The notes: generated from the sequence alone by a model not told the origin. A stretch of 64,000 bases of DNA from an uncultured Methylocystaceae bacterium (GCA_903870245.1 CAIQCB010000009.1:1-64000), one strand, 5' to 3'; shown: positions 31,798 to 64,000, numbered from the stretch's first letter. A program made the numbers and translations.

Positions 31798-31834
31798 ACC
31801 ATGGGCATCGTCGCTTGCTTCCAGGGAAAGTGAT

Positions 31835-46351: not shown

Positions 46352-46951
46352 TTATGGGGGCTGTATTGGAGTCAGTCCAGTCGAGTTGACTGGTTGATCC
46401 GTAACATTTGCGTATAGAGGCAAAGTTCTTCTTTGTCCGCCGTTTTGAATAACGACTTCTTTCGGAGCGATTGATGCAATATTCCATGAATCGACCGTGT
46501 CGCCAATTTTGCGCCATGCGCCTTCTGGCGCGTCGGATGATATAATATAAGCCTGCAGAATTTTCTTGTTAAGCACGATAGCAGTTACCGAAATCCCGCC
46601 GGACTCGGTCGTTCCGTTTGACGGAGAGACTGCATTGGCGGCTTTTGGCGATGGCTTGCGAGACTTTGAGAAGATTGGTCTTGAGATACTCTCGATATCG
46701 ACATTCGCTGGCTTCGGGGGATCAAGGCTCACAATGGCAAGAGATGGTGGTTTCCATTCTTGCGCGGCAATCTCATCCTCCTGGCCCCCATTGCCAAGGA
46801 AGGATTTAAACGCAAAAACGCCCATCGCTAGAGTCAAAATGGAGAGAGTCATCAGCCCCACAGCCCATAATGGCGATATCCGTAAATACTTCATTCTTTG
46901 CGAAGGTTCCGAGGCTTTAGAACTCTTCCACTTACGGCCAAAATTTCTCAT
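46352..46951 (-). CDS. Type II secretion GspC/GspN-like inner-membrane protein
   Basis: A 199-residue protein with a basic N-terminus, one span (about 28-51, PLWAVGLMTLSILTLAMGVFAF) and a periplasmic part. The latter has ESISRPIFSKSRKP and a small beta domain (SVTAIVLNKKILQAYI...IGDTVDSWNIASIAPKEVVI), as in the GspC homology region. No PDZ domain is present, so it is shorter than classic GspC. It overlaps the gspM stop by one base (TGATG), which supports cotranscription and a role in the inner-membrane platform. Confidence 0.72.
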   Translation of the reverse strand: MRNFGRKWKSSKASEPSQRMKYLRISPLWAVGLMTLSILTLAMGVFAFKSFLGNGGQEDEIAAQEWKPPSLAIVSLDPPKPANVDIESISRPIFSKSRKPSPKAANAVSPSNGTTESGGISVTAIVLNKKILQAYIISSDAPEGAWRKIGDTVDSWNIASIAPKEVVIQNGGQRRTLPLYANVTDQPVNSTGLTPIQPP

Positions 46952-47547
46952 CAGCGACTCATCTTTGGCGCTCCGCCAAATACGTCGAATTGCGCCTCGA
47001 CTTCATCAGTTTGCTGCCCTTGGGGGGCGCCCCAAAATACTGTCTGACTACGCAAAGTGGCTGCCGTGATCAGGAGAAGCGGCGGGTCTCCCTCAAGCGC
47101 TCGCGCCAGGGCGTGGATATTTTCGTTCGGACCGGCAACGTCAATACGCGCACCGACAAGTGTAACCCCCTGTAAGTCCTTGTTTGGCAACATTTGAATC
47201 GAACGTACTGTAACCTGGGTCGTCTCGGCGATCGCTTTTAGACGAGCTTGCAAATTGGCGTTAATGACGCCGTCACTGTCTCCCTGAAAAAGCTCTCCTT
47301 GCGCATTGATGTCGGAGACTTGATGAGCATAATCTTGTATCTGTCCCTCGTGCACAACGACCGACTCGTATCGTGAGAGTGTCTGATTTCGCTCAGCGAT
47401 CTCACGCGAACCATCCGCGATCATTCGACGTATGGGATCGACGAATATAGAGTAAAGAACGATAAGCATTAGAAAATTAAACCCGACGAAAATCCAACGA
47501 CGCGATTTTCTATTGCGAAAAATTGTCATTTTGGCTCTGGAGTTCAT
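46951..47547 (-). CDS. gspM: Type II secretion GspM-like protein
   Basis: A 198-residue inner-membrane protein. One span lies near the start (RRWIFVGFNFLMLIVLYSIFV). A coiled coil and a ferredoxin-like periplasmic domain follow, with QARLKAIAETTQVTVRSIQM and PNENIHALARALEGDPPLLL. This is the GspM_b type found with alphaproteobacterial T2SS. It stabilises GspL and the platform. It overlaps gspL and the C-like gene by 4 and 1 nt. Confidence 0.78.
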   Translation of the reverse strand: MNSRAKMTIFRNRKSRRWIFVGFNFLMLIVLYSIFVDPIRRMIADGSREIAERNQTLSRYESVVVHEGQIQDYAHQVSDINAQGELFQGDSDGVINANLQARLKAIAETTQVTVRSIQMLPNKDLQGVTLVGARIDVAGPNENIHALARALEGDPPLLLITAATLRSQTVFWGAPQGQQTDEVEAQFDVFGGAPKMSR

Positions 47548-48668
47548 TGATTGCTCTCCGGAGGTCGGGGTTCAATTTTTGCCTGGAGTGAAAAACTTTC
47601 ACGTTTCTCATGAGGATCGGGGGTGATCGGCGCTGTAAGCGTGGCTTCATTGAAAAGTAAAGATTTATTAAATTGAGCCGGTAATCCTACGGCTGAGTTG
47701 GCGAATCCGATAATGTCTACGACACGCTCATTGGGTTTGTTTTCTGAAAGCCTTAGCTCGGTGAGGAATGCACTATCGGGTAAAATTTTAGCGACTTCTT
47801 CCCAGACATCTGCGAAGAGTGGCTCGCGTCGCGCAGAGCGTAAAACCGTTAAAAGTCGGCTTTCAGCCGATGCCTTATCGATAACCTGCCGTAAACGGGC
47901 GGCGCGCGCAGCCATTTCGTTTATTTTTGTGTCCAATTCATTGTTCAATGTGGCTTGGCGCCATAGCGTTCCGCCAATGCCGATAAGGCCGAGCAAGATT
48001 GTCATCGTACACAATGCGAGTGTGATCCTGCTGGGGATTTTTGAACTCTTTTTTCGATCGCCCAGTTCGATAATCGGTTTGATTTCGGAGGGGGCGCCGC
48101 CCACGGGTCGGATAAAGGAGACCTTCTGGGTATTAAGTCCACTAAATTGAGCCGCTTCGGCGGCGATATCTTTTCTGATAATCCATAGAGAGATGTGCGT
48201 TTTGTCGGCCGCTCCCTCATGGCGCGCAGTGGTATAACCAAAGATAATATCATCCAGTTTAAATGGCGTTTTACGCTCAATGTCGGAGATCAGGAGTTTT
48301 GGCAGACTAGCCAAGGCCACGCTTGGGATATCGAAACGACGCACAAAGAAAGCCCCGGCATCAATCTCGATTCCGATCCGAACAGCGGTGGGCGCCAGAC
48401 CATGGCGGGTGAGAGCCTCTTCCAGTGACGATGAAGAGATTTCATCAGCTGTCAGTCTCCAGGTTCTTACGCCACGCCTGTCCGTGCACCAGAGGTCACG
48501 CTCGCCAGCTCTCAGAATGAGCTGACGATCGCCCTGGTCGGTGAGCCATTCAAGCATCTCGGGAGGAAAGAGGTTAAAGAATTCCCTGCGATACCAGTTA
48601 AGAAAACTGTCGGTGGCAGCCGAGAATGAACCTGGCAGTATATGGCGCGTCCAGAACTCGCTTGACAC
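47544..48668 (-). CDS. gspL: Type II secretion GspL-like protein
   Basis: A 374-residue bitopic inner-membrane protein that links the cytoplasmic ATPase GspE to the platform. The cytoplasmic actin-like part (about 60-200) shows RLTADEISSSSLEEALTRHG and SLPKLLISDIERKTPFKLDDI. The span is ITLALCTMTILLGLIGIGGTLW (about 217-240). A coiled coil (ELDTKINEMAARAARLRQVI) and a PilN-like domain (LRSARREPLFADVWEEVAKI) follow. The DNA of this gene block is more AT-rich by eye than region 1. It is divergent from gspE. Confidence 0.8.
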   Translation of the reverse strand: MSSEFWTRHILPGSFSAATDSFLNWYRREFFNLFPPEMLEWLTDQGDRQLILRAGERDLWCTDRRGVRTWRLTADEISSSSLEEALTRHGLAPTAVRIGIEIDAGAFFVRRFDIPSVALASLPKLLISDIERKTPFKLDDIIFGYTTARHEGAADKTHISLWIIRKDIAAEAAQFSGLNTQKVSFIRPVGGAPSEIKPIIELGDRKKSSKIPSRITLALCTMTILLGLIGIGGTLWRQATLNNELDTKINEMAARAARLRQVIDKASAESRLLTVLRSARREPLFADVWEEVAKILPDSAFLTELRLSENKPNERVVDIIGFANSAVGLPAQFNKSLLFNEATLTAPITPDPHEKRESFSLQAKIEPRPPESNQ

Positions 48669-48776
48669 GGATAAGAAACCTCAACTCATTGGGGATGAGC
48701 CACGCATTCTTAGGATTGTGTTGAGACCATAACTTTCAGACTTAAAAATGGCAATTAACATGTTGAGTTATTGCTT

Positions 48777-48809
48777 TTGAGCAATAAAAACCGCTCAAAT
48801 ACCAGCGGT
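48777..48809 (-). terminator. Terminator-like hairpin with overlapping alternative hairpin
   Basis: On the minus strand ACCGCT-GGTATTTG-AGCGGT is followed by TTTTATT, a weak intrinsic terminator. Its 3' arm overlaps a second possible stem, TTGAGC with GCTCAA (48777-48782 and 48793-48798). The two cannot form together. It sits about 110 nt upstream of the gspL start. Confidence 0.4.
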
Positions 48810-49130
48810 ACACAGCTGCATCTGACGATGTTAAGTTCGATCAAAATCTCAGAAATGAGGGTGTCAGTGTGTTCGCTGAAACCTTGGCCTTAACCTTTAA
48901 ATGAAAAAATTTAATTTTGTTATTACAACTGATTTAGCCTTTAAGGCTGGAAAACCGGGAACTCAAGCCGCTATCCTGATATGTGCCCGGTCGATCGGGA
49001 CTACTGAATTGGAAATGAGCAGGACGAGGGCAGTTATTTTTTTGATCCCGAGGCCCTAGCCAGGCCCCGATTTATTGGGTTTCAATGTGTGGAGGTAGCG
49101 ACAGAGTATACTATATAGTCATCCTAGCCA

Positions 49131-49158
49131 AAGATCGTAATCGATCTTGTCTGACAAG
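49131..49158. promoter_or_regulatory. Two adjacent dyads upstream of gspE
   Basis: AAGATCG-TAAT-CGATCTT (49131-49148) is a 7-bp inverted repeat. It overlaps CTTGTC-T-GACAAG (49146-49158), a 6-bp dyad whose core TTGTCTGACAA fits the TNGTNNNACNA pattern of FadR-type GntR operators. They lie about 160-190 bp upstream of gspE. Confidence 0.35.
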
Positions 49159-49319
49159 CTAGTTGTAAAAAAATTCAGATAGATGAAACGACCGTATCAT
49201 AAATATTTTTTTTGTGCTGCAAGGTTAGACAGGAGCTTATTAATTGGGTGCTATCTAACGTCTGGGTAATCTATAATTAAAATAACGCCAACCAGGCGGA
49301 CATCGGCAAGGGTATGCTT

Positions 49320-51074
49320 ATGAGGCTTAACGTCGGATCATCTGTGCTGAGTCCAGGAATTGAGACAATGGCGTGGCCCGACGCCAGAAGCACAGACTTT
49401 GTCGAGAGTTTCGGAGAGTTTCTGTTACAGGAAAAGGCGACGGACTCACTTGCCCTACAACGATCACAGCGGGCCGCGACTCAGAGCGGGGAGCGGTTCG
49501 ACCATGTTTTGACAAAACTCGGCCTTGTTTCCGAGGCTGATCTCTGTGACCATTTGGGAAAGTTTCTCAATATTGCCAAAATAGACTCCAGCGAAACGCC
49601 ACTTGAACCACTGCTGAGAGATGAGATACCTGAGAAATTTATCCATGCGAACCGCATGTTGCCCCTTTCGGTTGATGGTCAGCGTCTCAAACTTGCGATC
49701 GTTGATCCGCTGGATATGGAGCCAGTGAGAGCGCTTGCCTATTCGACGGGATATGAAATAGAGCTTAGGCTTCTTTTCCCTGCGCAATTCGAGAAATTAT
49801 GGTCATCTCTATATGGCGAACGGCAATCAGGCTTCTCTTTTGTTGAGACTGACCAGCGCGCACAGAATGCGAGCGAATTTGATTTGCAACGCCTGCGCGA
49901 TATCGCCAATGAAGCTCCAGTGGTACGTCGCGTTAACCAGATTATTGTTGAGGCGATTGAGGCGCGCGCTTCGGACATTCATATAGAACCCTCACTCGAA
50001 GCAGTGCATGTCCGTCACAGGATAGATGGAGCGCTTCGTAGTGTTCAATCAATGCCTCCGGGGTTGAAGGCCGCTATAGCCTCACGCATCAAGATCATGG
50101 CTCGTCTGGACATCGCCGAGCGCCGTCTGCCTCAGGACGGGCGTATCAAACTCGCCATTCGTGGAGTCGATATTGATTTTCGTGTTTCAACTTTACCTAC
50201 CGCTCATGGTGAGAGCATTGTCTTGCGTATTCTTGATCGCAGCCAGATTGCACTCGATTTCGATAAACTCGGTTTTGAACAAGTAACAACCTCCGAGTTC
50301 CGTCATGTGATGCGTAATCCAAACGGAATCGTGCTGGTCACGGGCCCAACCGGCAGTGGAAAGACAACCACACTATACACGGCCCTAAAGGAATTAACGA
50401 CTCCAGACGTTAAGGTGTTCACAGTTGAGGACCCTATAGAATATCAGCTTACCGGCGTTAATCAGGTACAGGTGCAACCAGCGATCGGGCTGGATTTTCC
50501 GAATACCCTTCGCGCTATACTCCGGCAGGACCCGGATATTATCATGATTGGCGAAATCAGGGACTCAGAAACGGCGCGTATTGCTATTCAGTCATCATTG
50601 ACCGGCCATCTCGTTTTCTCAACTCTTCACACCAATAGCGCCGCAAGTTCTATAACCCGGCTCATTGACATGGGAGTTGAAAATTATCTTATCGCATCCT
50701 CGGTAAAAGCCGTGCTGGCGCAACGTCTGGTGCGACGGCTCTGTACGTTTTGCGCCATTCCGATGGATAACCGAACAGTTGTTCGCGCACAGTTTTCAGG
50801 CGAGCCTTTCGCAACTCCGGATGATCGTCTGTCTTCTCCATCTGGCTGCTCGCATTGCAACAATACCGGCTATTCAGGACGCTCCACTATCGCAGAATTG
50901 TTAATCATGAATAAGCGCATCCAAAGGCTTGTTTGTGAAAGTGCGTCAGATGACCAACTCGAGGCTGCTGCGCGCGACAGTGGGATGACGACAATGTATC
51001 AATGCGGCATGGCCAAAGCATGGCGAGGCGAGACCACTATAGAAGAAGTCGCGCGCGTGACGCGCATGGATTGA
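49320..51074 (+). CDS. gspE: Type II secretion ATPase GspE
   Basis: Hexameric ATPase that drives pseudopilus growth. The N-terminal domain (about 1-150) has LTKLGLVSEADLCDHLGKFL. Walker A is GPTGSGKTTTLY, the Asp box follows in TVEDPIEYQL, Walker B is IMIGEIRDSETA, and the His box is FSTLHTNSAASS. A four-Cys zinc site is present (CTFC, then GCSHCNNTGYSGR). AAGGG lies 7 nt before the ATG at 49320, better than the ATG at 49314. It starts the E-F-H-I-J operon. Confidence 0.94.
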   Translation: MRLNVGSSVLSPGIETMAWPDARSTDFVESFGEFLLQEKATDSLALQRSQRAATQSGERFDHVLTKLGLVSEADLCDHLGKFLNIAKIDSSETPLEPLLRDEIPEKFIHANRMLPLSVDGQRLKLAIVDPLDMEPVRALAYSTGYEIELRLLFPAQFEKLWSSLYGERQSGFSFVETDQRAQNASEFDLQRLRDIANEAPVVRRVNQIIVEAIEARASDIHIEPSLEAVHVRHRIDGALRSVQSMPPGLKAAIASRIKIMARLDIAERRLPQDGRIKLAIRGVDIDFRVSTLPTAHGESIVLRILDRSQIALDFDKLGFEQVTTSEFRHVMRNPNGIVLVTGPTGSGKTTTLYTALKELTTPDVKVFTVEDPIEYQLTGVNQVQVQPAIGLDFPNTLRAILRQDPDIIMIGEIRDSETARIAIQSSLTGHLVFSTLHTNSAASSITRLIDMGVENYLIASSVKAVLAQRLVRRLCTFCAIPMDNRTVVRAQFSGEPFATPDDRLSSPSGCSHCNNTGYSGRSTIAELLIMNKRIQRLVCESASDDQLEAAARDSGMTTMYQCGMAKAWRGETTIEEVARVTRMD

Positions 51075-51078
51075 GTCG

Positions 51079-52287
51079 ATGCCAAAATTTAAATATCGAG
51101 CTTACAGCGACGCAGGTGATCTTCTTGAGGGAGAAATAGAAGCGCGTAGCAGCAACGAAGCTGAGGATAGCCTCCTCAAGCGTGGACTAACGCCTTTTCA
51201 GACGACCGAGGTGAAATCCGGGGCAAACCCCTTTCTTCTAGGCAAGCGCAGGGTTTCTGCAACACAGATCGCTGGTTTTACTCGCGAATTAGCCGCGCTG
51301 GAACTGGCTGATATTCCTCTGGACCAGAGTCTGCGAATCCTTGCTACGCAGAGCTCTGCACCCGCTCTGCTTGAATTGGTGCAAGACATTCTTGGGCGTG
51401 TCGTTGACGGGGAGTCTTTGTCTGACGCTCTTTCCCGGCGTCAGGAAATCTTTGGCTCAGAATATATCAATATGGTCCGAGAAGGTGAGACGGTCGGTCG
51501 TGTCGGGATAGCTTTATCAAATCTTGCGGACATGCTGGAGAGAAGACTCGAAATACGCGCCAAGGTTCAAAGCGCGCTCATCTATCCAATAATCCTAATT
51601 GTTCTCGCGATTGTTTCGACTGGCGTGGTATTAGGAACGCTTCTTCCCAGTATAGCACCAATCTTCGCAGATAATGGCAAAGAAATGCCGGGAGGCCTCC
51701 AGCTCATGCTGGATTTAGAGGATAATGCCGGGGTTATTGGATTTTTACTTGCAATACTTTGCCTTGCAGCCTTGTTTGCTTACATCATGGCTCGTTCACG
51801 TCCCGCATGGCAGGTAGCCTTCGCCCGTTTCGTTCTGAAAATTCCTGTTGCTGGAGGAATGGCGGCGCAATTTGCTACAGCGCGCTTTTCGCGTACTCTT
51901 GGTTCTATGCTGAAAGCCGGCGTCCCGCTTTTGCAAGCTCTCGAAAGTGCACGTGCTGGTGTGTCCAATGCTTTTTTTCATCAGGCGTTCGCGCAGGTTG
52001 TAGAGGCAGTGCGGAGCGGTTCCAATCTCAGCAATGCTCTTGCTCTCGTTCCATTCATGCCGCCGATCGCGATGCAGATGATCGCCATCGGCGAGGAGAC
52101 GGCCCAATTGGGCGATATGCTGCTCCGGGTCGCTGGCATGTTCGAACGTCAGACCCAGCGATCTATCGAACGCGCCATGGGACTGCTGACGCCCGTTCTT
52201 ACCATTTTGATTTCTGTCGTCGTCGGAGGACTGATAATGACGGTAATGGACGCCGTGCTCAGCATCAATGATATTGCAGCGCAATGA
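51079..52287 (+). CDS. gspF: Type II secretion inner-membrane protein GspF
   Basis: A 402-residue platform protein with three spans and two homologous cytoplasmic domains. The opening MPKFKYRAYSDAGDLLEGEI and the repeats (AGFTRELAALELADIPLDQS and ATARFSRTLGSMLKAGVPLLQAL) are the GspF/PilC pattern. The C-terminal LLTPVLTILISVVVGGLIMTVMDAVL is the last span. It begins 4 nt after gspE and overlaps gspH by 4 nt. Confidence 0.94.
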   Translation: MPKFKYRAYSDAGDLLEGEIEARSSNEAEDSLLKRGLTPFQTTEVKSGANPFLLGKRRVSATQIAGFTRELAALELADIPLDQSLRILATQSSAPALLELVQDILGRVVDGESLSDALSRRQEIFGSEYINMVREGETVGRVGIALSNLADMLERRLEIRAKVQSALIYPIILIVLAIVSTGVVLGTLLPSIAPIFADNGKEMPGGLQLMLDLEDNAGVIGFLLAILCLAALFAYIMARSRPAWQVAFARFVLKIPVAGGMAAQFATARFSRTLGSMLKAGVPLLQALESARAGVSNAFFHQAFAQVVEAVRSGSNLSNALALVPFMPPIAMQMIAIGEETAQLGDMLLRVAGMFERQTQRSIERAMGLLTPVLTILISVVVGGLIMTVMDAVLSINDIAAQ

Positions 52288-52745
52288 GACGTTTCTCCAG
52301 ACTTCATCAGCCTCGCGCTGGCTTTACATTGCTGGAAACTCTTGTCGTTCTTTCGCTTATTGGTCTTCTTGCCGGGATGGCTTCTCCATTATTGCATTCC
52401 CCCGCAGAACGTTTGAGACTCGAGAGCGCGACCCGTTCCTTTTGTGCCGTGCTTAGAGCCTCGCGTGCTCGTTCTATAGCGAACAATCAAGAGACGATTG
52501 TCGTTATCGACGTTGTCAATAAAACCTATGCATCGCCCGTGATCAATAACGGCAGATTTCCCTCTGACGCATCGATCCAAATCGAAGTGGCGAATACCCG
52601 GTATCTTGGCGAGAATCTCGGAACGATTGTATTCTTTCCTGACGGCGCCTCGACTGGGGGCAATATTACTTTGAAGCTTTCCAAAACAAATGCCAGAATC
52701 AGCGTAAACTGGCTTACTGGCGGGGCGAAATGCGTGTTCGGCTAA
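52284..52745 (+). CDS. gspH: Type II secretion minor pseudopilin GspH
   Basis: A 153-residue prepilin. The short basic leader ends at G before the cleavage site in GFTLLETLVVLSLIGLLAGM, with the Glu at +5. The rest is a beta-rich head (LRASRARSIANNQETIVVID) ending in an unpaired-looking Cys (GAKCVFG). It overlaps gspF by 4 nt and gspI by 16 nt. It forms the pseudopilus tip complex with I, J and K. Confidence 0.87.
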   Translation: MRRFSRLHQPRAGFTLLETLVVLSLIGLLAGMASPLLHSPAERLRLESATRSFCAVLRASRARSIANNQETIVVIDVVNKTYASPVINNGRFPSDASIQIEVANTRYLGENLGTIVFFPDGASTGGNITLKLSKTNARISVNWLTGGAKCVFG

Positions 52746-53140
52746 AATGGCGTAAGGGGTTTACGCTGATTGAGGCTTTGGGCGCTTTTGCCATTCTTGC
52801 GATTACATTAGGGCAGCTCTTAAATGGCGTGAGCGGAGGCGTCAGAAATGAGGCTCGCGCAGATTTTCTCCTACGTGCATCCCGGGAAGGTGCATCACAA
52901 ATTGATGCGCTTGGCGTCGATGGAACGGTTCAATCTGGCGAGACAAGCGGCAAATATCCAGACGGTCTCAATTGGATTCTTACGGTCAGCCCGGGACCGG
53001 TTGTCCCAATTGTTGGCGGAGGACAGACAATATCGAGTTTCCATGTGAAACTTATTATTATGAAGCCATCGGGTTATGGTGAGCGTTTCACGCTTTCTAC
53101 AGTGAAGTTAAAAGTCGATCAAACCAGGTTTACACCATGA
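52730..53140 (+). CDS. gspI: Type II secretion minor pseudopilin GspI
   Basis: A 136-residue prepilin with leader MRVRLKWRKG and the cleavage motif GFTLIEALGAFAILAITLGQLL. The small head has TVSPGPVVPI and a basic end. It overlaps gspH and gspJ. The assignment to I follows its place between H and J and its size. Confidence 0.82.
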   Translation: MRVRLKWRKGFTLIEALGAFAILAITLGQLLNGVSGGVRNEARADFLLRASREGASQIDALGVDGTVQSGETSGKYPDGLNWILTVSPGPVVPIVGGGQTISSFHVKLIIMKPSGYGERFTLSTVKLKVDQTRFTP

Positions 53141-53781
53141 AATTTCGTCATGCTGACGGGTTCACGCTGATTGAGCTCTTGTTGGCGGTGACCCTCCTGT
53201 CTTTGATTACTGCGTCAATCATGGGTGGCGTTCATCTTGGCCGGCGTAGTTGGGAAACGAGTCGTGTCAGCGAGTCCTTGGATGAGCTCGAGACCGCTGT
53301 TCATGCCATTAGGGATCTTCTGGGGCGAAGTTTTATCATTACCCCTGATCAGACGACGCCTGGTTTGAAGGAAAAGCCCTTAACGTTTATGGGCGCTCCT
53401 AATGGCTGTCGTTTTGTTGTCCTAAGCGAGGGTGGCGCGCAATGGGGCGGGCTCATCATAACTGAAGTTGGAGTCGAGAATGGCCCTGATGGCGCAGCGC
53501 TCCTCGTTTGGACAAAGCCCTATCGTCCGCAATCAGGTCTAATGATAGATCGTGCAGATATGCAGAAAACAATTCTCGCTGAGGGACTAGTTTCAATCCG
53601 GTTTGATTATTTCGGAGCTGTAGAGCCTGTGCCTGGTCAAGAAAGGATATCGCAGCCCGTATGGATCGGAAATTGGCGTAGCGTCACCAGTCTTCCATCA
53701 TTGGTTTCTGTAACAATCGTTTTGCGGCGACTTGGACGCGATGTTAGAGCTAACGCGGTCATGGCTTTACGCCAGCAATAA
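53137..53781 (+). CDS. gspJ: Type II secretion minor pseudopilin GspJ
   Basis: A 214-residue prepilin, the largest of the H-I-J set, with leader MKFRHADG and the motif GFTLIELLLAVTLLSLITAS. The head has DELETAVHAIRDLLGRSFII and WTKPYRPQ. ATGA overlap with gspI shows coupling. It is the last gene of the plus-strand block. A 160-nt gap without terminator signs separates it from the convergent peptidase gene. Confidence 0.83.
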   Translation: MKFRHADGFTLIELLLAVTLLSLITASIMGGVHLGRRSWETSRVSESLDELETAVHAIRDLLGRSFIITPDQTTPGLKEKPLTFMGAPNGCRFVVLSEGGAQWGGLIITEVGVENGPDGAALLVWTKPYRPQSGLMIDRADMQKTILAEGLVSIRFDYFGAVEPVPGQERISQPVWIGNWRSVTSLPSLVSVTIVLRRLGRDVRANAVMALRQQ

Positions 53782-53941
53782 AAATATAGTTCTGATTTTT
53801 CAGGATTTTGTCAATTTATACAAGCTCCTGAGCGCAAGTTCGGCACCGCGTCGAGAGCGACGCCCGACCCAGGGGTAAGATTTCAATCATACGGTGTGAT
53901 GTCTTGCGCGTCTGCAGCATCATATATCAGTTACGCTATCA

Positions 53942-54586: not shown

Positions 54587-54742
54587 TAAAGATGAGCCCT
54601 TACTGTAGCTTGGCTGTTTCAAACTGCTACATAATGATGGAAAAACAGAGTTCTGATTATAAATCGTGGCAAAAAACCACTAGATATGTTAGTTGTCTTT
54701 TTGTAGCCAGAGTTCACGGTTGGCCTAGCTGGGTTTGTAGTA

Positions 54743-57127
54743 TTGCGTATCGCCCATTTATTCAGTGCGCTGGCTTTTGCGGTTCTTGCGCTTGCGGCCT
54801 GTAACTCGTCCGTTTCGGGCGGGCCTCCCGTCGCCGAGTGGAATGTCGAGCCTGTCAGCCGCGGTTATCGCTCAGGGGCTCAAATCGGCGACAATGGATC
54901 GAAGGGTCTTCTCGGGCGCAGAGGATCTGGCGCCAAGGCGATAGTGTCCACTGGCACCGGTAAAATGATCGGACCGGGTCGATCGCGACCGGCGCAGGAG
55001 CCCGTCGGCGAGGATGGTGTGACCCTTAATCTGGTCGGTCTACCAATTGCGCAAGCGGCCAAAATCGTAATCGGCGACATCATGGGCGCTGATTTCGTTG
55101 TCGATCCCAAACTTGATGGCAAGGTGACGGTCCATACCGCCAATCCGGTCAGCAAGAAGACTGCGCTTGATCTTTTTCAATCGGCTTTGAAGGTCTCTGG
55201 CGCCTCCGTTGTTAAAGCCGGGGACATATTCAAAATCGTTCCCAACGATCAGGCGTTAGTGTCCGGGGAGATCATTTCCGGCGACTCCCTGCCGCCGGAT
55301 GCGACACCCCTGGGCGAGACCGCGCGGGTGGTTTCCTTGCGATATGTGTCTGCGTCCGAGATGAAACGCGTGCTCGAACCCATTGCCGAGCGAGGCAGCG
55401 TCGTCCGCGCCGACGACGCGCGCAATACGCTTACCATCAATGGCACGGCTTCCAATCTTTCCACGCTGATGGACGCCATCAGCATGTTCGACGTCGACAC
55501 CATGAGAGGCATGTCTTTCGCGCTTGTGCCGGTACGAAGCGGCGACGCCGATGTGATCGCCGATGACCTGAAAAATATCTTCGGGTCGGAAAAGGAAGGC
55601 CCGATGGGCGGCATGATCCGTTTTGTTGGCAACAAGCGTCTTGCCTCAATCCTGGTGATTTCACCGCAGCCGCAGTATATCGGACGCGCCCGGGCATGGA
55701 TCGAGAAGCTCGATGCCCGCGCCGAAAACAATGAAAAACAATTTTTTACATACCGCGTTCAGAACAGGCCGGCGCGGGAGCTGATGTCTGTGCTCGCTTC
55801 AATCTTTGGGGCCAATAAAGGTGCTTCGGGAGCGGGCGTATCACCCCGCTTCGGTCAATCCTCCTTGTCATCGTCAGGCGGTATGAACGGTTCAGCGACG
55901 CCGCCGATCGGCGGAATATCAACATCGGCAGGAGGAGGGCCGGGCGGCCTGGGTGCTGGCGGCGGCGGCGCTCCCGGATCCGCATCGGCTTCCGGCGGAG
56001 GGTTTGGCTCCGCTCTTGGAGGCTCAACGGGCACGCCGAGCGGCATTTCCGGATTCAGCGTCCCGGGCGGGCCGTCGGGTGGTCCGGAACTCGATCAAAC
56101 GCCGTCTGTAAGTCTCGATAACGATCGCTACAAAATTGGAGTCGACGACGCCAAAAACGCCCTTATTGTTATGTCAACGCCAGAGGATTACCGACGGGTT
56201 CGGCAGGTCATCGAGTCTCTCGACGTTTTGCCCAATCAGATCTACCTCGAAGCCACAATCGCCGAAGTTCGCCTGAACGACGCTTTGAGATTTGGCGTGA
56301 GGTTCTTCTTGCAAAAGAACGCCAGCATCGTCGCCGGCAGTAGCGGTCTGGCCAATCAACCCGCTGTCAATGATTTACTTGGGAACAACCTTCTGGGCGC
56401 CCCGGTCGGCGCATTATTTCCGGGATTTGCCTATGCCTATCGCGCCCTTAACCAGCAGGCGACCATTAACGCGCTCAACGCAATTTCCGAAGTAAATATC
56501 ATTTCAACGCCGTCCTTGACCGTCCTCGACAATCGCGAAGCTCTGTTGCAGGTCGGCGACCAGATCCCGGTGCAGACCCTGACCAGCGTTTCGGCGATCG
56601 GGAACACCTTCAATTCAGTCAATTACACCAACACCGGCGTCATCCTTAAGTTGACTCCGCACATCAGCGAGAGTGGACGCGTGATGCTGGAGATCGAGCA
56701 GGAGGTGTCCAATGTCGATCCTGCTACGCCTGTGGGCAGCACGACGCCCACCATCCAGCAGCGGCGCGTGAAGACTCAGGTCGTTGTCAATGATAGCGAG
56801 TCGCTGATGCTTGGCGGTATGGTAAAGGATCAGACCGGCCGAAGCGCTGCGCAGGTGCCTGTGGTCGGCGATATCCCGATCTTTGGAACCGCCTTCAAGG
56901 ACAAGAATGATGCAATCGACAAGCAGGAACTGATCATCATGATCACGCCGCATGTGGTTCGCTCTTTGAGCGAAGGTCGTGAAATTACTGAAGAATATAA
57001 AAGAAAATTGCTCAATATTTCTTCGCGGGCCATCGGTCGACAACATGATATCGAACAATCGGCGCGGCGAACGATACTTGACCCATGGTCGAAAAGTCCA
57101 TGGCGCGCAGATAAGGAAACGCGATAG
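54743..57127 (+). CDS. gspD: Type II secretion outer-membrane secretin GspD
   Basis: A 794-residue secretin that forms the outer-membrane exit pore. The TTG start opens a lipoprotein signal with lipobox ALAAC (about 16-20), so the secretin may reach the outer membrane as a lipoprotein without a separate pilotin. N0-N3 domains follow (DGVTLNLVGLPIAQAAKIVI, KTALDLFQSALKVSGASVV). A long Gly/Ser insert (about 355-440) and the secretin core (NREALLQVGDQIPVQTL, GVILKLTPHISESGRVMLEI, VVGDIPIFGTAFK) come next. It is more GC-rich by eye than gspE-J. It is convergent with gspK. Confidence 0.93.
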   Translation: MRIAHLFSALAFAVLALAACNSSVSGGPPVAEWNVEPVSRGYRSGAQIGDNGSKGLLGRRGSGAKAIVSTGTGKMIGPGRSRPAQEPVGEDGVTLNLVGLPIAQAAKIVIGDIMGADFVVDPKLDGKVTVHTANPVSKKTALDLFQSALKVSGASVVKAGDIFKIVPNDQALVSGEIISGDSLPPDATPLGETARVVSLRYVSASEMKRVLEPIAERGSVVRADDARNTLTINGTASNLSTLMDAISMFDVDTMRGMSFALVPVRSGDADVIADDLKNIFGSEKEGPMGGMIRFVGNKRLASILVISPQPQYIGRARAWIEKLDARAENNEKQFFTYRVQNRPARELMSVLASIFGANKGASGAGVSPRFGQSSLSSSGGMNGSATPPIGGISTSAGGGPGGLGAGGGGAPGSASASGGGFGSALGGSTGTPSGISGFSVPGGPSGGPELDQTPSVSLDNDRYKIGVDDAKNALIVMSTPEDYRRVRQVIESLDVLPNQIYLEATIAEVRLNDALRFGVRFFLQKNASIVAGSSGLANQPAVNDLLGNNLLGAPVGALFPGFAYAYRALNQQATINALNAISEVNIISTPSLTVLDNREALLQVGDQIPVQTLTSVSAIGNTFNSVNYTNTGVILKLTPHISESGRVMLEIEQEVSNVDPATPVGSTTPTIQQRRVKTQVVVNDSESLMLGGMVKDQTGRSAAQVPVVGDIPIFGTAFKDKNDAIDKQELIIMITPHVVRSLSEGREITEEYKRKLLNISSRAIGRQHDIEQSARRTILDPWSKSPWRADKETR

Positions 57128-57139
57128 GCGCGCAGCTTA

Positions 57140-58111
57140 TCAACAATCCGGTTCTCCCTTTACGCCCATCATTCTGAGTCTGCGCATCTCCTCCAGATGA
57201 ACAGGCTCGCTACGACGCCATTCCCTGAATGCAAAGGGCTTGCCATTCGCCGGCCGCAAATTCAGCAGAGCGTCGCGTCCCGATGTCTGTCCGCCGGGCA
57301 ACAAGGCTTCGGCATGGATCAGAAGAGTGGATCGATCGCTCATCTGGTTAAGGCCTGCCGGGAAACGGGGATCTTTTCGGTTTAGCGTGTTTGGAAAGGG
57401 CTCCGCCGTCAAATGGCGAATAATCTCCGCCGGATAGCCAGCGAGCGCCGCAAACAGAGCGGGTGGGGCAGCCCGCGCGTCGACGCCAGGGCTACGAGAA
57501 TTGACCGTGACGAAACGCATTAGAAGTCGATAAAGTTCTGGATCGACGCCATCGACTTGGTCGAGTTCCGTTATTGTCTCGAACAACGCCTGTTTGAGAG
57601 GAACAGGCTTTTTCTGCCTTGTCGACTCGAGCGCTATCCTCCCAGAACCTGTGGCGGACGGCGAGGCGCGGAAAGCCATTATTGAGCCAGATACCTCCTG
57701 CGCCTTCTTGTCGGAGACGCCAAGTCCGAGAAGAAGCGAACGAAGCGTCTCCGGAGATGAAGCATTAAGATCAATCTTGCCGCCTTCATCCTCTATGCTC
57801 ACAGTGACGATGGCGCCGTCAAATATACAGAATTGCGGTGCGCCATCGTAGGCGACGTCATTATCGGGATTTTCAACGGCGCTTTGCTTGCTGACGAGAG
57901 CCAGCGTCTTGAGGTTGATAGCAGCCTCTGCGACATAGCCAGCCGCGACGGCATTGGCGATATTGTTAGCCGCCTGCAAACGTTGTCGCCCGGATGTCAT
58001 GAATGCAACGACCATAGTGGCGATAAGGCCAATGCCCCATACCACGACGAGAAGCGCGAACCCTGAATTCCGTTTATGGCGGAGACGATGCCTGCCTTTG
58101 CAGACGGTCAC
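57140..58111 (-). CDS. gspK: Type II secretion minor pseudopilin GspK
   Basis: A 323-residue pseudopilin that caps the pseudopilus. The leader ends in RNSGFALLVVVWGIGLIATM. The +5 Glu is missing, which is normal for GspK. The large head has KIDLNASSPETLRSLLLGLG and QVDGVDPELYRLLMRFV helix-hairpin-helix-like segments. It overlaps the gspG stop by 4 nt, so G and K are coupled, and it is convergent with gspD (12 nt apart). Confidence 0.88.
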   Translation of the reverse strand: MTVCKGRHRLRHKRNSGFALLVVVWGIGLIATMVVAFMTSGRQRLQAANNIANAVAAGYVAEAAINLKTLALVSKQSAVENPDNDVAYDGAPQFCIFDGAIVTVSIEDEGGKIDLNASSPETLRSLLLGLGVSDKKAQEVSGSIMAFRASPSATGSGRIALESTRQKKPVPLKQALFETITELDQVDGVDPELYRLLMRFVTVNSRSPGVDARAAPPALFAALAGYPAEIIRHLTAEPFPNTLNRKDPRFPAGLNQMSDRSTLLIHAEALLPGGQTSGRDALLNLRPANGKPFAFREWRRSEPVHLEEMRRLRMMGVKGEPDC

Positions 58112-58572
58112 CTCGCCTGGGAGCCGCGCGTGAGGCCGCCTGCGCGACCATCAGGTCCGTTCGATGCGACATCATAGGGACCGCCGTTTTGTCCGGGCGA
58201 GCGATAGCTGTAGGGATGCCCCCAGGGATCCTTCGGAACCCCTGTCGATTTCAGATAGGGCCCATTCCAGGACGAAACCCCGGACGGACGCTGTATGAGT
58301 GCGACAAGACCTTCTTCGGTTGAAGGATAGCGACCGGCGTCAAGGTAAAACAGATCGAGCGCGCTGGCCAGATTTTGCATTTGTATTTCGGCGGTTTTGA
58401 CTTTCGAATCTGAAAGATAGTTCAAAACGCGCGGACCGACGAGACCAACAATCGATCCGATGATCGCGAGCACGACAAGCATTTCGACAAGGGTGAAGCC
58501 GGCGCGTCGGCTATAGGTTCTTCTGCGGCGCGAGAATAACGATCCGGCGAGCGCGATAGTCTGACTGGTCAT
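58108..58572 (-). CDS. gspG: Type II secretion major pseudopilin GspG
   Basis: A 154-residue major pseudopilin. After a long basic leader comes AGFTLVEMLVVLAIIGSIVG with the +5 Glu. The calcium-site region is typical: LDAGRYPSTEEGLVALIQRP, WNGPYLKSTGVPKDPWGHPYSYRSPGQ and YDVASNGPDG. The N-terminal leader of about 24 residues is longer than usual. It is followed by gspK with a 4-nt overlap. Confidence 0.94.
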   Translation of the reverse strand: MTSQTIALAGSLFSRRRRTYSRRAGFTLVEMLVVLAIIGSIVGLVGPRVLNYLSDSKVKTAEIQMQNLASALDLFYLDAGRYPSTEEGLVALIQRPSGVSSWNGPYLKSTGVPKDPWGHPYSYRSPGQNGGPYDVASNGPDGRAGGLTRGSQAR

Positions 58573-58595
58573 TTTATTTTTCCTGTAATCAGCGC

Positions 58596-58955
58596 CTAGA
58601 GTTCAACATATATGTCGCATCCGTAGATTGACATGGGATTTCCTTCTGCGTCCTCGATCTTGTTCCAGCATTTTCCGACACCGGAAATCATGCGGTAGAT
58701 GAAGACGCCTTCCGCTTCGGTTACGCGCTTTTCAGGAACCCGCTGGCGGCCCAGATAATTGAAATAGGCCGTAGCGATATCGTCGCCGCAACGGTACATT
58801 GTTCCGCGATCGAGCAGAAAGACGTTGCTGCGATCCTTCGCATGGCTGATGCAATAAGAGTAGTGGGTAAGCCCTTCGGGCTTGACGCTGATTTGCGCCG
58901 TGGCCGAGCCTGATGCGAGAAAGAACCCAAGCAGGAAAGAGAAAAAATAAGCCAT
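58596..58955 (-). CDS. Small exported protein, 119 aa
   Basis: No family recognised. Signal peptide MAYFFSFLLGFFLASGSATA, then a mature part with four Cys (YCIS, YRCGDD, GKCWNK, YGCDIY) that could form two disulfides. GAGGG lies 5 nt before the ATG. It ends 23 nt before gspG on the same strand, so it may share a transcript with G and K. The product could be a secreted substrate or an accessory factor, but nothing in the sequence shows which. Confidence 0.65.
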   Translation of the reverse strand: MAYFFSFLLGFFLASGSATAQISVKPEGLTHYSYCISHAKDRSNVFLLDRGTMYRCGDDIATAYFNYLGRQRVPEKRVTEAEGVFIYRMISGVGKCWNKIEDAEGNPMSIYGCDIYVEL

Positions 58956-59134
58956 TCAACCCTCAAAGAGCGCCGATCAGCGCGCGTTTGTTATGATGTT
59001 TTTCACCAGATTATGCAATACTGGCCAATCCAGATGAACTCATCATCGAGTAATATTTCAGTAATATCAGGTTAATTTGATCAAGCCTGTATCTTAAACA
59101 AAATCTAATACAAAAAGAAATGTTTTACTATGGT

Positions 59135-59455
59135 TCAGAGTAGTCGTCGGCAGAGCCCTTTGAGAAGTTTCCAGTTCCCGTCTTCCCTCCATTCGACAAG
59201 CGCCACATCGAGATATACCTGGCCAGAATTCTGTTCGCTCCTGACAAAGTTTACCTGACAGGAATATTTTGGCGGGCTGTCGCTCAAGCATTCAAGTCCG
59301 GTGATCTTGATATCCTTGTCGTGTTTGCCATCGTTGGTCGTCGCCTCACGATCAAAGGCAGCTTGAATGTTTTCGATTGATGGCGGCTCCAATGTCGCCG
59401 CCCCCGAATGTCCGATCATGAGCGCGCAAAGGAATTTACCCAATAGACACGCCAT
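59135..59455 (-). CDS. Small exported protein, 106 aa
   Basis: No family recognised. The N-terminus (MACLLGKFLCALMIGHSGAA) is a short signal peptide. The mature part has DIKITGLECLSDSPPKYSCQVNF with a likely disulfide, and a C-terminal GNWKLLKGLCRRLL. The fold reads as a small NTF2- or cystatin-like beta domain, but that is a guess. The ribosome binding site is weak. It lies 84 nt downstream of the large multicopper oxidase gene on the same strand. Confidence 0.55.
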   Translation of the reverse strand: MACLLGKFLCALMIGHSGAATLEPPSIENIQAAFDREATTNDGKHDKDIKITGLECLSDSPPKYSCQVNFVRSEQNSGQVYLDVALVEWREDGNWKLLKGLCRRLL

Positions 59456-59539
59456 AAGTTAACCCCGTCAAAAGTATCCGTCGCCTCGAATACGGGAACG
59501 GCGTTCAACCGTTCCCGTATCTGTTTCGTCTCTGGAGAT

Positions 59540-61738
59540 TTATTCGATGTCCAGGGCGGAGATTTTAAGGGGCGACACCGTCGATCCCCATGGAACAACT
59601 CCGACAGCGCGCATCATGCCTCCATCTTCATGTTCAAGAATGTGGCAATGCATCACGAATTTACCCAGCTTGGCGAAGGGGATCTGCGTAGTAATAGTCG
59701 TCGCCTTGCATTTACCTGCCTTATAATCAGCGATACTGCCGCAATCGCTGACGCCAGTGTTGGTGGCGACTGGCAGCGGCACGCTATCCTGAAGCATGCC
59801 AGGATTGACCGCTGCTGCACTCAACAGGCTGCTGGCAGGGGTGGCGTTGTTTGGGTCGATCAAACGGAACCTTGTCTGGTGGATGTGAAAATTATGCAAT
59901 TCGGTCGCGAGATTGATAATTTCCCATGTTTCCACCACAGGCATCTGGTTCTTGGCCAAGGGCACGCAGATAACTTGTGTCGGATCGTATTTTGCAATCT
60001 CCTGGGTTTCCCGCACGACGCCAAGTGAGTCCACCAGCTCGTATCCAAGTCCAAATTCAGCTTGTCCGCTAGGACCAGTGGTGGCGAGATTGGCGAAGTA
60101 GACCCTACGCTTCCAGCCCGTCGGCAGAGCTTTGCAGTTTGAGGGCACAGGCGTATCGACGGCGCCCGGGACGGCGGCCTGGAAGATGCCGCCGGTAGAT
60201 CTTACTGATTCCGCCGCGCCATTGACCACATGAACCAACTCTTTAACTACAGTCGGCGAGCCGGCTGGTATGCTCACTGTGGCCAGCTGAATCGGCGGCC
60301 ACTGATCGCCATTGGCAGGTATTGCTCCGCCCGTGTTCAATCCCGCCGTTATCAGATTGCCTGCAAGGGCCGTCTTCAACCGATTGCCGTTGATGTCCCT
60401 TGCCGCGACATGCAATTCGACGCGGGTTCCGACCATCATGATGATCTCGGAAGCGCAGACTGGCTGGGTCTTGTAGGACTCGGACACCTTACCACAGCTC
60501 GCCAGAGTGAAGCGATTTTTGCCGAGTTGAATTACCTGACCCGCATTAGCTCCAGTCGGGAAAGAAACGGAAATACCGTCAATGGAGAGAATCTGGACAG
60601 GCATGGCGTAGCCGCTAGCCCCCATTTTCCATTGCAATCGATAGCTCGCCACGCTGGAGGAGTTTGTCAGACGCCATACTTCGCCTTCCGCCGTCGCGAC
60701 GGGAATGGAGGGGTAGAGTTGACCATTGATCGGAAAATTCCACTGTCCTCCAGCATAGGCGCCTATTCCGGGACAGGAACCATTCGGGGAAGGGGACGTA
60801 ATGAGGCCAGCGCCACAAAAGTCGGGATCTTCCTGCAGAAGGGGCGTAAATTTGCCTCCCGGCTGCGTAACCAACTGCATATCCTTGAGGATCAAATGAC
60901 GCACGTTTGTTTCTGTAATCGGCTTCGTGCAGGAGTCGTCACCGCATTCGTAACTAGAAGCCTTGCCGATAGTGATGATCGAGGAGAGACCGGACGAAAG
61001 ATGATTCAGGGTTAAACCGTGGGTGTGTGCGTGTATCCAGCCTGTGCCAAGCGGATGATTTTTGGGAATCAGAATGTCGTATTGAGCGACGCCAAAAGGA
61101 ACGACATCGCCATGCGAGTGGCCTGGATTTGTGGCGAGTGGATCAATCGCTGTGGGCGACCCGTTGGCCGGGTTGAAAATCGATGTGTAGATGAAGTCGC
61201 CGTATACCGGTATTCCGCTCAAGCTCGTGTTCGGTCTTGCGTCGACCACAAGTCCGTGAGTGTGCAGGTTCGTAGGATTCAGAACAAGAAGGGGGTCCTG
61301 ATAGAGATAGGCGATCTGCGTTGTGACCGCCGGCAGCCTGCTCTTCGGAAGACCAGCTATCGAGGTGTTAAGCGTCGGCAGGTTGTTTCTGAATTTGATT
61401 TTCAGCCGATCTCCCGGCGTAAGGGAGAGACGAACGCCGCCATATTGGGTCTGGGTGCTTTTGCCTGTGCAGGTTGGGACGACGGCAGAGCCTCCCGTCG
61501 GAAGAGTGACTTTCGTGTTGGTTGCGTCGACGCTAAAGCAGGTTGTGTAGGCCCAACCTTTAACGCCAGTATTTCCGCCCGCTCCCTGAACCTCCTGAGC
61601 GATCATGACGATGTCAAGAAGGCCATTGAGGCTTGAGAATACTGGAGGTTCAGCCAGCGGAGCAGCGGATGCGGAGTTGAAAGCCAGCGCCGCAGCAATC
61701 GCCGCCGTCGCAGTCATAAGACTGGACTTTATATTCAT
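59540..61738 (-). CDS. Exported multicopper oxidase, large form
   Basis: A 732-residue oxidase with signal peptide MNIKSSLMTATAAIAAALAFNSASA. The four copper-ligand clusters are present: NLHTHG (about 157-162), WIHAHTHG (about 234-241), HNFHIHQTRF (about 615-624) and HCHILEHEDGGMM (about 697-709) with the type 1 Met. Such enzymes oxidise metals or phenols with oxygen. Substrate is unknown. It is longer than CotA or CueO types, with a large middle insert. GGGAGG lies 9 nt before the ATG. It is the last of three copper genes in line. Confidence 0.9.
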   Translation of the reverse strand: MNIKSSLMTATAAIAAALAFNSASAAPLAEPPVFSSLNGLLDIVMIAQEVQGAGGNTGVKGWAYTTCFSVDATNTKVTLPTGGSAVVPTCTGKSTQTQYGGVRLSLTPGDRLKIKFRNNLPTLNTSIAGLPKSRLPAVTTQIAYLYQDPLLVLNPTNLHTHGLVVDARPNTSLSGIPVYGDFIYTSIFNPANGSPTAIDPLATNPGHSHGDVVPFGVAQYDILIPKNHPLGTGWIHAHTHGLTLNHLSSGLSSIITIGKASSYECGDDSCTKPITETNVRHLILKDMQLVTQPGGKFTPLLQEDPDFCGAGLITSPSPNGSCPGIGAYAGGQWNFPINGQLYPSIPVATAEGEVWRLTNSSSVASYRLQWKMGASGYAMPVQILSIDGISVSFPTGANAGQVIQLGKNRFTLASCGKVSESYKTQPVCASEIIMMVGTRVELHVAARDINGNRLKTALAGNLITAGLNTGGAIPANGDQWPPIQLATVSIPAGSPTVVKELVHVVNGAAESVRSTGGIFQAAVPGAVDTPVPSNCKALPTGWKRRVYFANLATTGPSGQAEFGLGYELVDSLGVVRETQEIAKYDPTQVICVPLAKNQMPVVETWEIINLATELHNFHIHQTRFRLIDPNNATPASSLLSAAAVNPGMLQDSVPLPVATNTGVSDCGSIADYKAGKCKATTITTQIPFAKLGKFVMHCHILEHEDGGMMRAVGVVPWGSTVSPLKISALDIE

Positions 61739-61878
61739 TATTTAACGCCTCCCAAGTTTATATTTATGAGATATAAAGCCAAGTTTGACCCGTTACGATC
61801 AGTAAATGATGAATGGATGCTTAAGGCAATTATAGAAGCCGGTGTAATAATTCCAAGCGTTGAAAATCCTCTTACGAA

Positions 61879-62787
61879 CTAAAACCTTTCAATGTAATCA
61901 ATAATGTCGGCAGCATCTTCTGGCCTCAAGCCAAGCGGCGGCATCAATACGCCCGGATACTTATCCTGCAGCGCCATTGTTTGCGGATCCTTGCGTTGCC
62001 GCATGCGATCCGGAAACATGATGAATTCCGTAAGCCATTCACGGGAGCGCCTTTTAGTGACGCCTGCCAGATCTGGGCCGACCCGATCGCCGCCGCCGAT
62101 GGCATGGCATGGCGCACAGAGCTTGGCGAACATCGCCTTGCCCGGCACGCCGCCGGAGTCATAGGCCTTATCGACCAAATCCTGATTGGCGGTCGTGTCG
62201 CTTTTTGGCCTCCAGGCAGGATCCATGCCCCTGATATCCATCTCGACGCTTGCCAGATCGCCCATCAGGGAGTTTCTGGCCCATACGCCGGTCGACTCGT
62301 TGCCAATAACGATCTCGTTGCGATGTTCGCTCAGATTGCGGCTGCGATCTCCAAGGGAATGGTTGATCTTTTTGATCGTTTCCGGATCGCCGGTCAGGAA
62401 GCGCCAGCCCGTTTTTGCGCCGAAGGCTTCGGCGAATTTCTTGAGTTCGGCGGGCGTATCGCGTTCCGGGTCTACGGTGATGGAATAGAAAAAGACATCT
62501 TTACCGAGCTTGTCGCCGAGACTCTGCTGGAGTTGGGACATGCGCGCCGTTGTCAGCGGACAGAGATCCGGGCAATGCGTGTAGATGAAATTGACGACGA
62601 CAATCTTGCCCTTGATCAGGTCGTCGTAGAACGCATAACGATTACCATCCTGATCGATAACGGGAAGGTTGGGGAAATAGCCGGCGCCATGGGAGTTATC
62701 CGATAACGCCGGCAGTAACGATTTCAGCAGAATAAGGGATACCGCAATCACTCGCTTGAAGTTTCTCATGACGATTGCGGTCTCCAT
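61879..62787 (-). CDS. Sco1/SenC copper chaperone fused to cytochrome c
   Basis: A membrane-anchored or exported fusion. The N-terminal Sco domain has the copper-binding CPDLCP (Cys 72 and 76) and a conserved His near 155 (LSEHRNEIVIG). The C-terminal class I cytochrome c has CAPCH (about 224-228) and the Met ligand in VLMPPLGL (about 282). Sco proteins deliver copper or reduce thiols during assembly of copper centres. The fused haem could take or give electrons. Starts at TTG 62790 or ATG 62769 are also possible. The upstream oxidase stops 5 nt earlier. Confidence 0.9.
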   Translation of the reverse strand: METAIVMRNFKRVIAVSLILLKSLLPALSDNSHGAGYFPNLPVIDQDGNRYAFYDDLIKGKIVVVNFIYTHCPDLCPLTTARMSQLQQSLGDKLGKDVFFYSITVDPERDTPAELKKFAEAFGAKTGWRFLTGDPETIKKINHSLGDRSRNLSEHRNEIVIGNESTGVWARNSLMGDLASVEMDIRGMDPAWRPKSDTTANQDLVDKAYDSGGVPGKAMFAKLCAPCHAIGGGDRVGPDLAGVTKRRSREWLTEFIMFPDRMRQRKDPQTMALQDKYPGVLMPPLGLRPEDAADIIDYIERF

Positions 62788-62791
62788 CAAC

Positions 62792-64000
62792 TCAAATTGC
62801 CTTGGCCATGATCTCCGGCGTTGTGAACACTACGCCATCGGGTGTCGGGTTGGGCGTTGGCGTCACTGTCGATTGAGGGGAACCCGCAATGCCGCTGATA
62901 AGTTGAACTCGCGCGGCCATCGCAAAATCCTCGTGAGCGGTGTTGTGGCAATGGGTAATGTAGGCTCCGGCGAATTCGCCGAATTGCACCTGGAAGGATA
63001 CGCTTCCGCCGCCAACCCGCCAGACATCCTTTCGCGCCATGTTTTCCGTAACGCTGAGCGACCCCTTGCCTGTGCGTTTGAAGGTGACGCCTTCCTCGAA
63101 ATGCAGGTGCATGGGGTGCGACCAGCCGCCGCTACTGCTGTTGACTGTCCAGTGCTCGACTTCTCCGGGTCTGGGGACGAGCATGGCGACCCGGTTGGCG
63201 TTGAGGCTATGTTCAAGCTGACCATTGACCGATATGACCCAGGGGAAGGGCATTGCGTCCGGACAATCCGGCGTACATTTGCCATTGGCGCCGCGAGATG
63301 TGCCAATGCCGCGTCCGAGATCAATTACGCGCGTGCGAACGGGCGTGACAATGGGGATCTGCTCGGTCAAGGCCAGAGGCACGATGCTCGTATCGGGCGT
63401 CGTAGACCTATGGATGACGCCGGGAACATCTACGCTCGCCACCTGGCCGACCACGCGAAATTCCAGGATCGGTCCTACCATCGGGTCCGGATCGAGCGGG
63501 AGTCCGGCAAGCGCCTCGGATAGTTTGACCGCCATTTTGGGTTCGCGGCCATCATTGTGCCAGTTGAGATTGACGACACGCAGTTTTTGACCGATCGCGA
63601 ATTTGGAGAAATCCACGATAATATCGAAGCGTTCGCCCGTTGCCTGATCTCCCAGTCCCGTCACAGTTACGGGTCTTGGAAGCAGGTTGCCGTCGGTCGC
63701 AATGACCTGGATCGGAACGGCGGCTCCCTGCGCGTTGGCAAGCACGAGATTCAAAAAACGCGCCTGGCAGCAATTCAGAATACGGAAGCGGTATTTCCGG
63801 GGCAGCACCTCGAAAAATGGCGCAAAAGCCAAGTTCACCATCGGGACGTCGCCAAGGGAGCCGTCCGTATCGAAGATATCGAAAAAGAGCTGGCCATCCG
63901 CCCGATACGACTGGTCGGAGATCATCAGGTTGACGTCGAAATCGAGATTACCCCAATCGAGCAGGCTTCCGCTCGGCAATCTCAGATTTACGCCATCCGT
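62792..64000 (-). CDS. Multicopper oxidase, second copy (N-terminal part outside window)
   Basis: The frame is open to the right edge, so at least 403 C-terminal residues are visible. Cupredoxin segments include FRILNCCQARFLNLVLANAQ and FDIIVDFSKFAIGQ. The copper-ligand clusters HPMHLHF and HCHNTAHEDFAM are present, the latter being the type 1 motif H-C-H-x3-H-x4-M. The tail is Pro/Thr-rich (TVTPTPNPTPD). The sequence differs clearly from the other oxidase, so this is not a simple duplication. Its stop is next to the Sco-cytochrome gene, indicating one operon. Confidence 0.88.
   Translation of the reverse strand, partial: TDGVNLRLPSGSLLDWGNLDFDVNLMISDQSYRADGQLFFDIFDTDGSLGDVPMVNLAFAPFFEVLPRKYRFRILNCCQARFLNLVLANAQGAAVPIQVIATDGNLLPRPVTVTGLGDQATGERFDIIVDFSKFAIGQKLRVVNLNWHNDGREPKMAVKLSEALAGLPLDPDPMVGPILEFRVVGQVASVDVPGVIHRSTTPDTSIVPLALTEQIPIVTPVRTRVIDLGRGIGTSRGANGKCTPDCPDAMPFPWVISVNGQLEHSLNANRVAMLVPRPGEVEHWTVNSSSGGWSHPMHLHFEEGVTFKRTGKGSLSVTENMARKDVWRVGGGSVSFQVQFGEFAGAYITHCHNTAHEDFAMAARVQLISGIAGSPQSTVTPTPNPTPDGVVFTTPEIMAKAI

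Follow-up and report, generated by a model that had tools for sequence, protein, structure and literature searches.

A candidate secreted copper-oxidase operon beside a type II secretion system in an apparent Methylocystis genome

To our knowledge, no cargo has been identified for most type II secretion systems (T2SSs) outside model pathogens. The genome of an uncultured Methylocystaceae bacterium (GCA_903870245.1), apparently a member of the methane-oxidizing genus Methylocystis, contains a T2SS gene cluster next to genes for two multicopper oxidases (MCOs), and the question is whether this T2SS exports these oxidases. We analyzed a window of 64,000 nt (CAIQCB010000009.1:1-64000), to which all coordinates refer; it belongs to contig C9 of genome G000 (3.2 Mb, 66 contigs). 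The gene content, the export motifs, the copper ligands and the recurrent linkage to T2SSs described below make it likely that this is a secreted copper-oxidase operon beside a resident T2SS: the oxidases would be exported by the twin-arginine translocation (Tat) and general secretory (Sec) routes, loaded with copper by a Sco protein and released through the T2SS, and would then carry out oxidation outside the cell with O2.

Gene content of the locus

Gene identities were derived from Pfam and NCBIfam profile searches of the window proteins (E-values in brackets). The oxidases MCO1 and MCO2, the Sco protein (ScoC), two small proteins (sm106 and sm119), gspG and gspK are all encoded on the minus strand, with MCO2 transcribed first; the intergenic gaps in the series MCO2-ScoC-MCO1-sm106-sm119 are 1, 140, 84 and 179 nt. 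The original prediction, made from the sequence by inspection, that two different MCOs flank a fusion of Sco1 and cytochrome c was confirmed. Both MCO2 (62792-64000; the gene is cut by the window edge and continues to 65050, and the full protein on the contig has 752 aa) and MCO1 (59540-61738) match Cu-oxidase_2 (PF07731), and ScoC (61879-62790) matches SCO1/SenC (PF02630, 2.4e-25) and cytochrome c (PF00034, 2.1e-11).

In an alignment of 11 MCO2 sequences, a Tat-like motif, (S/T)RREL-x-(K/R)WG, is conserved (SRRELYKWG in the window copy), and all copper ligands are invariant. The four Cu-binding motifs are present, with the ligands H245, H247, H318, H320, H645, H648, H650, H700-C701-H702, H706 and M711. 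MCO1 is a three-domain laccase-like oxidase that is apparently exported by Sec, as its Sec-like signal, judged by eye, suggests. Its HxH, HxH, HxxHxH and HCHxxxHxxxxM motifs and cupredoxin fold identify it as an MCO, and every Cu ligand as well as nine cysteines are invariant in 26 sequences. ScoC, a member of the Sco1/SenC family, contains CPDLC (the CxxxC of Sco) and CAPCH (the CxxCH of cytochrome c), and both motifs are kept by every MCO2-clade ScoC relative checked.

Several small exported cysteine-containing proteins had also been predicted. Such proteins are present, but they number just two, sm106 (59135-59455) and sm119 (58596-58955), and neither has a Pfam, NCBIfam or PADLOC match or a convincing match in the PDB. 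The gene for sm106 is a conserved partner of MCO1: homologs adjoin MCO1 homologs at 10 related loci and in one congener, and the family, which has an invariant Cys and a GLC(K/R) end, is spread over several alphaproteobacterial lineages and one Burkholderiales metagenome-assembled genome (MAG). An AlphaFold2 (AF2) model of sm106 (predicted local distance difference test, pLDDT, 81; moderate confidence), with one helix and four strands, has no PDB match below E 0.03. The gene for sm119 lies beside gspG, which it adjoins in 12 congeners (identity 69-83%), and its product may be an accessory component or a substrate of the T2SS of the genus. Another neighbor shared by MCO1 homologs is an ApbE-type flavin transferase-like gene, found in Bradyrhizobium (L006-L009) and on one Methylocystis replicon (L106, G024:C2), where the MCO1 homolog looks interrupted.

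The near-complete T2SS of the original prediction was likewise recovered, with a full gene set at 46352-58572 that comprises the inner-membrane components, secretin, ATPase, pseudopilins and prepilin peptidase. On the minus strand, the genes for a GspC/XpsN-like inner-membrane protein (46352-46951), GspM of subtype b (46951-47547; PF10741, 4.6e-12) and GspL with its PilN domain (47544-48668; PF05137, 1.4e-6) are followed, on the plus strand, by those for the ATPase GspE (49314-51074; PF00437, 6.6e-139, and MshEN), GspF (51079-52287; PF00482, 2.3e-49) and the pseudopilins GspH (52284-52745; PF12019 and N_methyl), GspI (52730-53140) and GspJ (53137-53781). Next come the A24 prepilin peptidase (53942-54622, minus; PF01478, 1.5e-11), the secretin GspD (54743-57127, plus; TIGR02517, 480 bits against a cut-off of 351), GspK (57140-58111, minus; PF21687, 6.7e-8) and the major pseudopilin GspG (58108-58572, minus; PF08334, 3.2e-36). 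GspI and GspJ match the N-methylation motif only and are named from gene order and homology (congener identities of 57-69% and 45-56%, respectively). The GspC-like protein matched weakly (NCBIfam XpsN 2.5e-6, T2SSC 0.034, both below cut-off); the position of its gene is kept in congeners.

Recurrence of the oxidase-T2SS pairing

MCO2 is rare: a class-level sample of 289 genomes contains one carrier and an order-level sample of 398 contains 10, and all 10 carriers of the order encode a T2SS secretin above cut-off. MCO2-ScoC lies within a T2SS cluster in genome G037, whereas MCO2 is located about 280 bp from gspF in G476, adjoins gspD in G876 and is flanked by T2SS genes in G1063. Replicons of Fuscovulum ytuae, Limimaricola variabilis and Paraburkholderia largidicola likewise carry T2SS genes near MCO2-ScoC. 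For MCO1, a homolog is located next to a T2SS cluster in four genomes of Bradyrhizobium, in Roseiarcus fermentans and in a Rhodospirillales MAG; in Bradyrhizobium sp. SRS-191 (L009), two different T2SS clusters flank the homolog, one on each side. In G848 and G787, the sole other MCO1 carriers in the unselected order sample, a secretin gene lies about 100-150 bp from the homolog (L206, L207); besides this secretin, BLAST found no T2SS gene within the 20 kb read around the homolog.

Co-occurrence was assessed in an order sample of 199 genomes, 27 of which have a T2SS secretin above cut-off, with the window genome excluded from the carrier counts. A T2SS was found in all eight carriers of MCO1 or MCO2, which represent six families, versus 18 of the 190 non-carriers (one-sided p = 3e-8, kinship ignored). 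For MCO2 alone, the values were 6/6 carriers versus 20/192 others (p = 3e-6, kinship ignored). In the GspD tree, the MCO-linked T2SSs are scattered among several supported clades, although some rows are long-branched; a single inherited T2SS-MCO unit was therefore rejected. The window MCO2 is sister to that of G476 (support 98/97), but the T2SS of G476 belongs to another clade, whereas the window T2SS is the genus's own lineage. The most parsimonious explanation is that the oxidase genes were relocated and then became paired with another exporter, one already resident.

The same T2SS occurs in about half of 37 congeners (GspD identity 51-77%), in most cases as one block of which sm119 is the constant last gene. 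A close MCO1 homolog is present in 7 of 37 genomes of the genus, the window genome counted; all seven have the T2SS, versus 12 of the 30 others (Fisher p = 0.008, kinship uncorrected). The flanks past sm119 in congeners (L124-L137) sometimes encode long exported-looking proteins, such as one of 679 aa in L125 and a Tat-like one of 642 aa in L135, as if this flank were a variable cargo site.

Several observations weigh against a functional link between the window T2SS and the oxidases. In congeners, the MCO1 homologs are found 0.2-2.4 Mb away from the T2SS or on separate contigs, and the genes past sm119 vary; the window junction is thus genome-specific. The idea that the genus conserves this precise junction was rejected: 12 congeners keep T2SS-sm119, but different genes follow sm119 there, and the MCO1 homologs are located elsewhere. 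In addition, of the nine further genomes of the order that carry MCO2, five (G038, G879, G854, G949 and G1012) have no T2SS near MCO2 in the 20-44 kb read, by BLAST only, although they do have one elsewhere in the genome. The oxidase operon may have landed at the window junction by chance, which is a possible explanation of any single junction. The T2SS and the operon would then be mere neighbors: the T2SS would export other enzymes, and the oxidases would remain periplasmic, for example in copper tolerance of the CueO/CopA type. This alternative fits the absence of the junction from the other genomes of the genus and the frequent occurrence of the T2SS block, with its variable flanks, without oxidases. 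It is at odds with the recurrence of the pairing with unrelated T2SS lineages and with the strong co-occurrence. CueO, which is exported by Tat, and CopA are three-domain copper oxidases like those of the window, but MCO1 and MCO2 both fall far short of the cut-offs of the two families (CueO, cut-off 525: 42.5 bits for MCO1 and 89.5 for MCO2; CopA, cut-off 479: 16 bits for MCO1 and no match for MCO2). We consider mere proximity decidedly improbable as an explanation. The conservation of the neighborhood, a check proposed with the original prediction, was found in part: the pairing recurs in other families and orders and on plasmids, with unrelated T2SSs, but congeners keep their MCO1 homologs far off.

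Next to the T2SS, 43740-45527 encodes an Amidohydrolase_3 protein that matches a Tat signal weakly and is a possible further exported enzyme. Adjacent genes for a polyphosphate kinase and an exopolyphosphatase (31622-35627) are ordinary. In the host genome, which is 99.95% complete, pmoA/AMO (PF02461) gave no match, whereas 12 of 12 congeners tested have one to four; either the host is related to Methylocystis but lacks particulate methane monooxygenase, or the assembly has a gap in a repeated operon.

Relation to described oxidase systems

The original prediction knew of no system with this layout. That view is not supported: the iox cluster of Iodidimonas, with gsp genes in its flanks, has been described (PMC9415286), as has Gsp-dependent Mn oxidation in Pseudomonas putida (cited in PMC3798386). 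The Iodidimonas cluster comprises ioxA (an MCO of 62 kDa), SCO genes, ioxC (71 kDa) and the gsp genes; its product IOX is a biochemically studied extracellular iodide oxidase, and the authors called it unclear whether the gsp genes are needed for its secretion (PMC9415286). The iox clusters of Iodidimonas and Roseovarius share with the window an MCO gene accompanied by SCO and an extracellular enzyme as the known or proposed product, and that of Iodidimonas also shares the T2SS flank.

The window operon might therefore encode an iodide oxidase of the iox type, with MCO2 as IoxA, ScoC as IoxB and MCO1 in the place of IoxC, that makes I2 outside the cell, a reading compatible with secretion. The MCO-then-SCO gene order, the Tat-like signal and the gsp neighbors are as in iox, and MCO2 is 31-33% identical to the IoxA-like proteins (64-66 kDa) of two iox-shaped clusters, in G472 and G719, references picked by layout and size and not from Iodidimonas sequences. 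However, neither the window nor the other MCO2-clade loci yielded an IoxC homolog in tblastn with the IoxC-like proteins of these two clusters. MCO1 has no similarity to these proteins and was rejected as an IoxC equivalent by homology. Moreover, MCO2 belongs to a separate, fully supported clade; its Sco partner is fused to cytochrome c, whereas no heme motif is present in the Sco proteins checked beside IoxA-like oxidases (G472 and Skermanella); and the window has a second MCO family, MCO1 with sm106. We consider an iox-type iodide oxidase unlikely. The operon is a variant of an arrangement already published for iodide-oxidizing bacteria, in a distinct clade without IoxC, and its novelty is limited.

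At the level of the substrate, the Mn-oxidizing system of P. putida GB-1, for which we know of no described MCO-Sco-T2SS cluster, is the model for a further alternative, in which the secreted MCOs would deposit Mn oxides as MnxG and McoA do. GB-1 oxidizes Mn by means of two MCOs and a Gsp-related pathway (PMC3798386, PMC11930936), on which the Mn-oxidizing factor depends (de Vrind 2003, cited in PMC3798386). The third Mn-oxidation gene, beside MnxG and McoA, encodes the heme peroxidase MopA (PMC11930936). Likened by description, both systems have two MCOs, and the extracellular MCO activity of GB-1 needs a T2SS-like pathway. MopA has a parallel in relatives of the window operon: in six genomes (G1012, G879, G854, G949, Limimaricola and Fuscovulum), genes for giant RTX animal-heme peroxidases lie about 1-8 kb from MCO2-ScoC. 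They are related to a 2865-aa protein, and a type I exporter adjoins them in the two annotated plasmids (Limimaricola and Fuscovulum). The nearby peroxidase genes hint at a wider extracellular oxidation toolkit. The genome paper of Limimaricola OXR-209, checked for a habitat clue, does not mention manganese or iodide. The window operon, however, has no peroxidase gene beside it. We regard Mn(II) as a doubtful substrate. Another possible precedent is OmpB/OxpG of Geobacter sulfurreducens, a T2SS-secreted multicopper protein (Mehta 2006, cited in PMC1974784); it differs in its role, the reduction of insoluble electron acceptors. Both this protein and the Gsp pathway of GB-1 serve as functional precedents.

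Finally, the oxidases could be secreted laccases that oxidize phenolics or humics. The nearest PDB matches of MCO2 are bilirubin oxidase and CotA, and the AF2 model of MCO1 (pLDDT 78) is nearest to laccases (E 3e-27). Neither fold nor sequence similarity fixes the substrate, however, and IOX takes phenolics besides iodide. We consider laccase activity of this kind rather unlikely. Iodide, Mn(II) and phenolics are all candidate substrates of the window oxidases.

Proposed mechanism and implications

If the operon encodes secreted oxidases, MCO2 would cross the inner membrane by Tat and MCO1 by Sec. In the periplasm, ScoC would hand copper to MCO2 and perhaps also to MCO1, and the heme domain of ScoC would probably govern the redox state of the copper/thiol site. 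Once folded and loaded with copper, the oxidases would leave through the adjacent T2SS and act on their substrate outside the cell using O2. The original prediction had proposed a unit that exports, loads copper into and wires up the oxidases. The recurrent linkage to T2SSs and the strong association of T2SSs with MCO1 and MCO2 agree with the export part; 'wiring up' is conjectural. MCOs reduce O2 directly, and as they pass their electrons to O2, wiring is not needed; the cytochrome of ScoC more likely serves periplasmic redox or copper handling.

More tentatively, and with rather less than even confidence, we suggest that mobile secreted-oxidase cassettes are formed by MCO2-ScoC and, independently, by MCO1-sm106. 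These would have been paired anew, repeatedly, with T2SSs of unrelated lineages and, in some relatives, with a giant heme peroxidase linked to a type I secretion system. They would make up an extracellular oxidation system that has no name as yet and differs from iox; its two copper oxidases perhaps cooperate.

Extracellular copper oxidases matter for iodine cycling, manganese cycling and the breakdown of phenolics. The pairing would bear on the question, raised for iox, whether neighboring gsp genes secrete the oxidase. More generally, two different oxidase families are found paired time and again with T2SSs of several lineages, and this provides a rule, open to testing, by which extracellular copper oxidases could be predicted.

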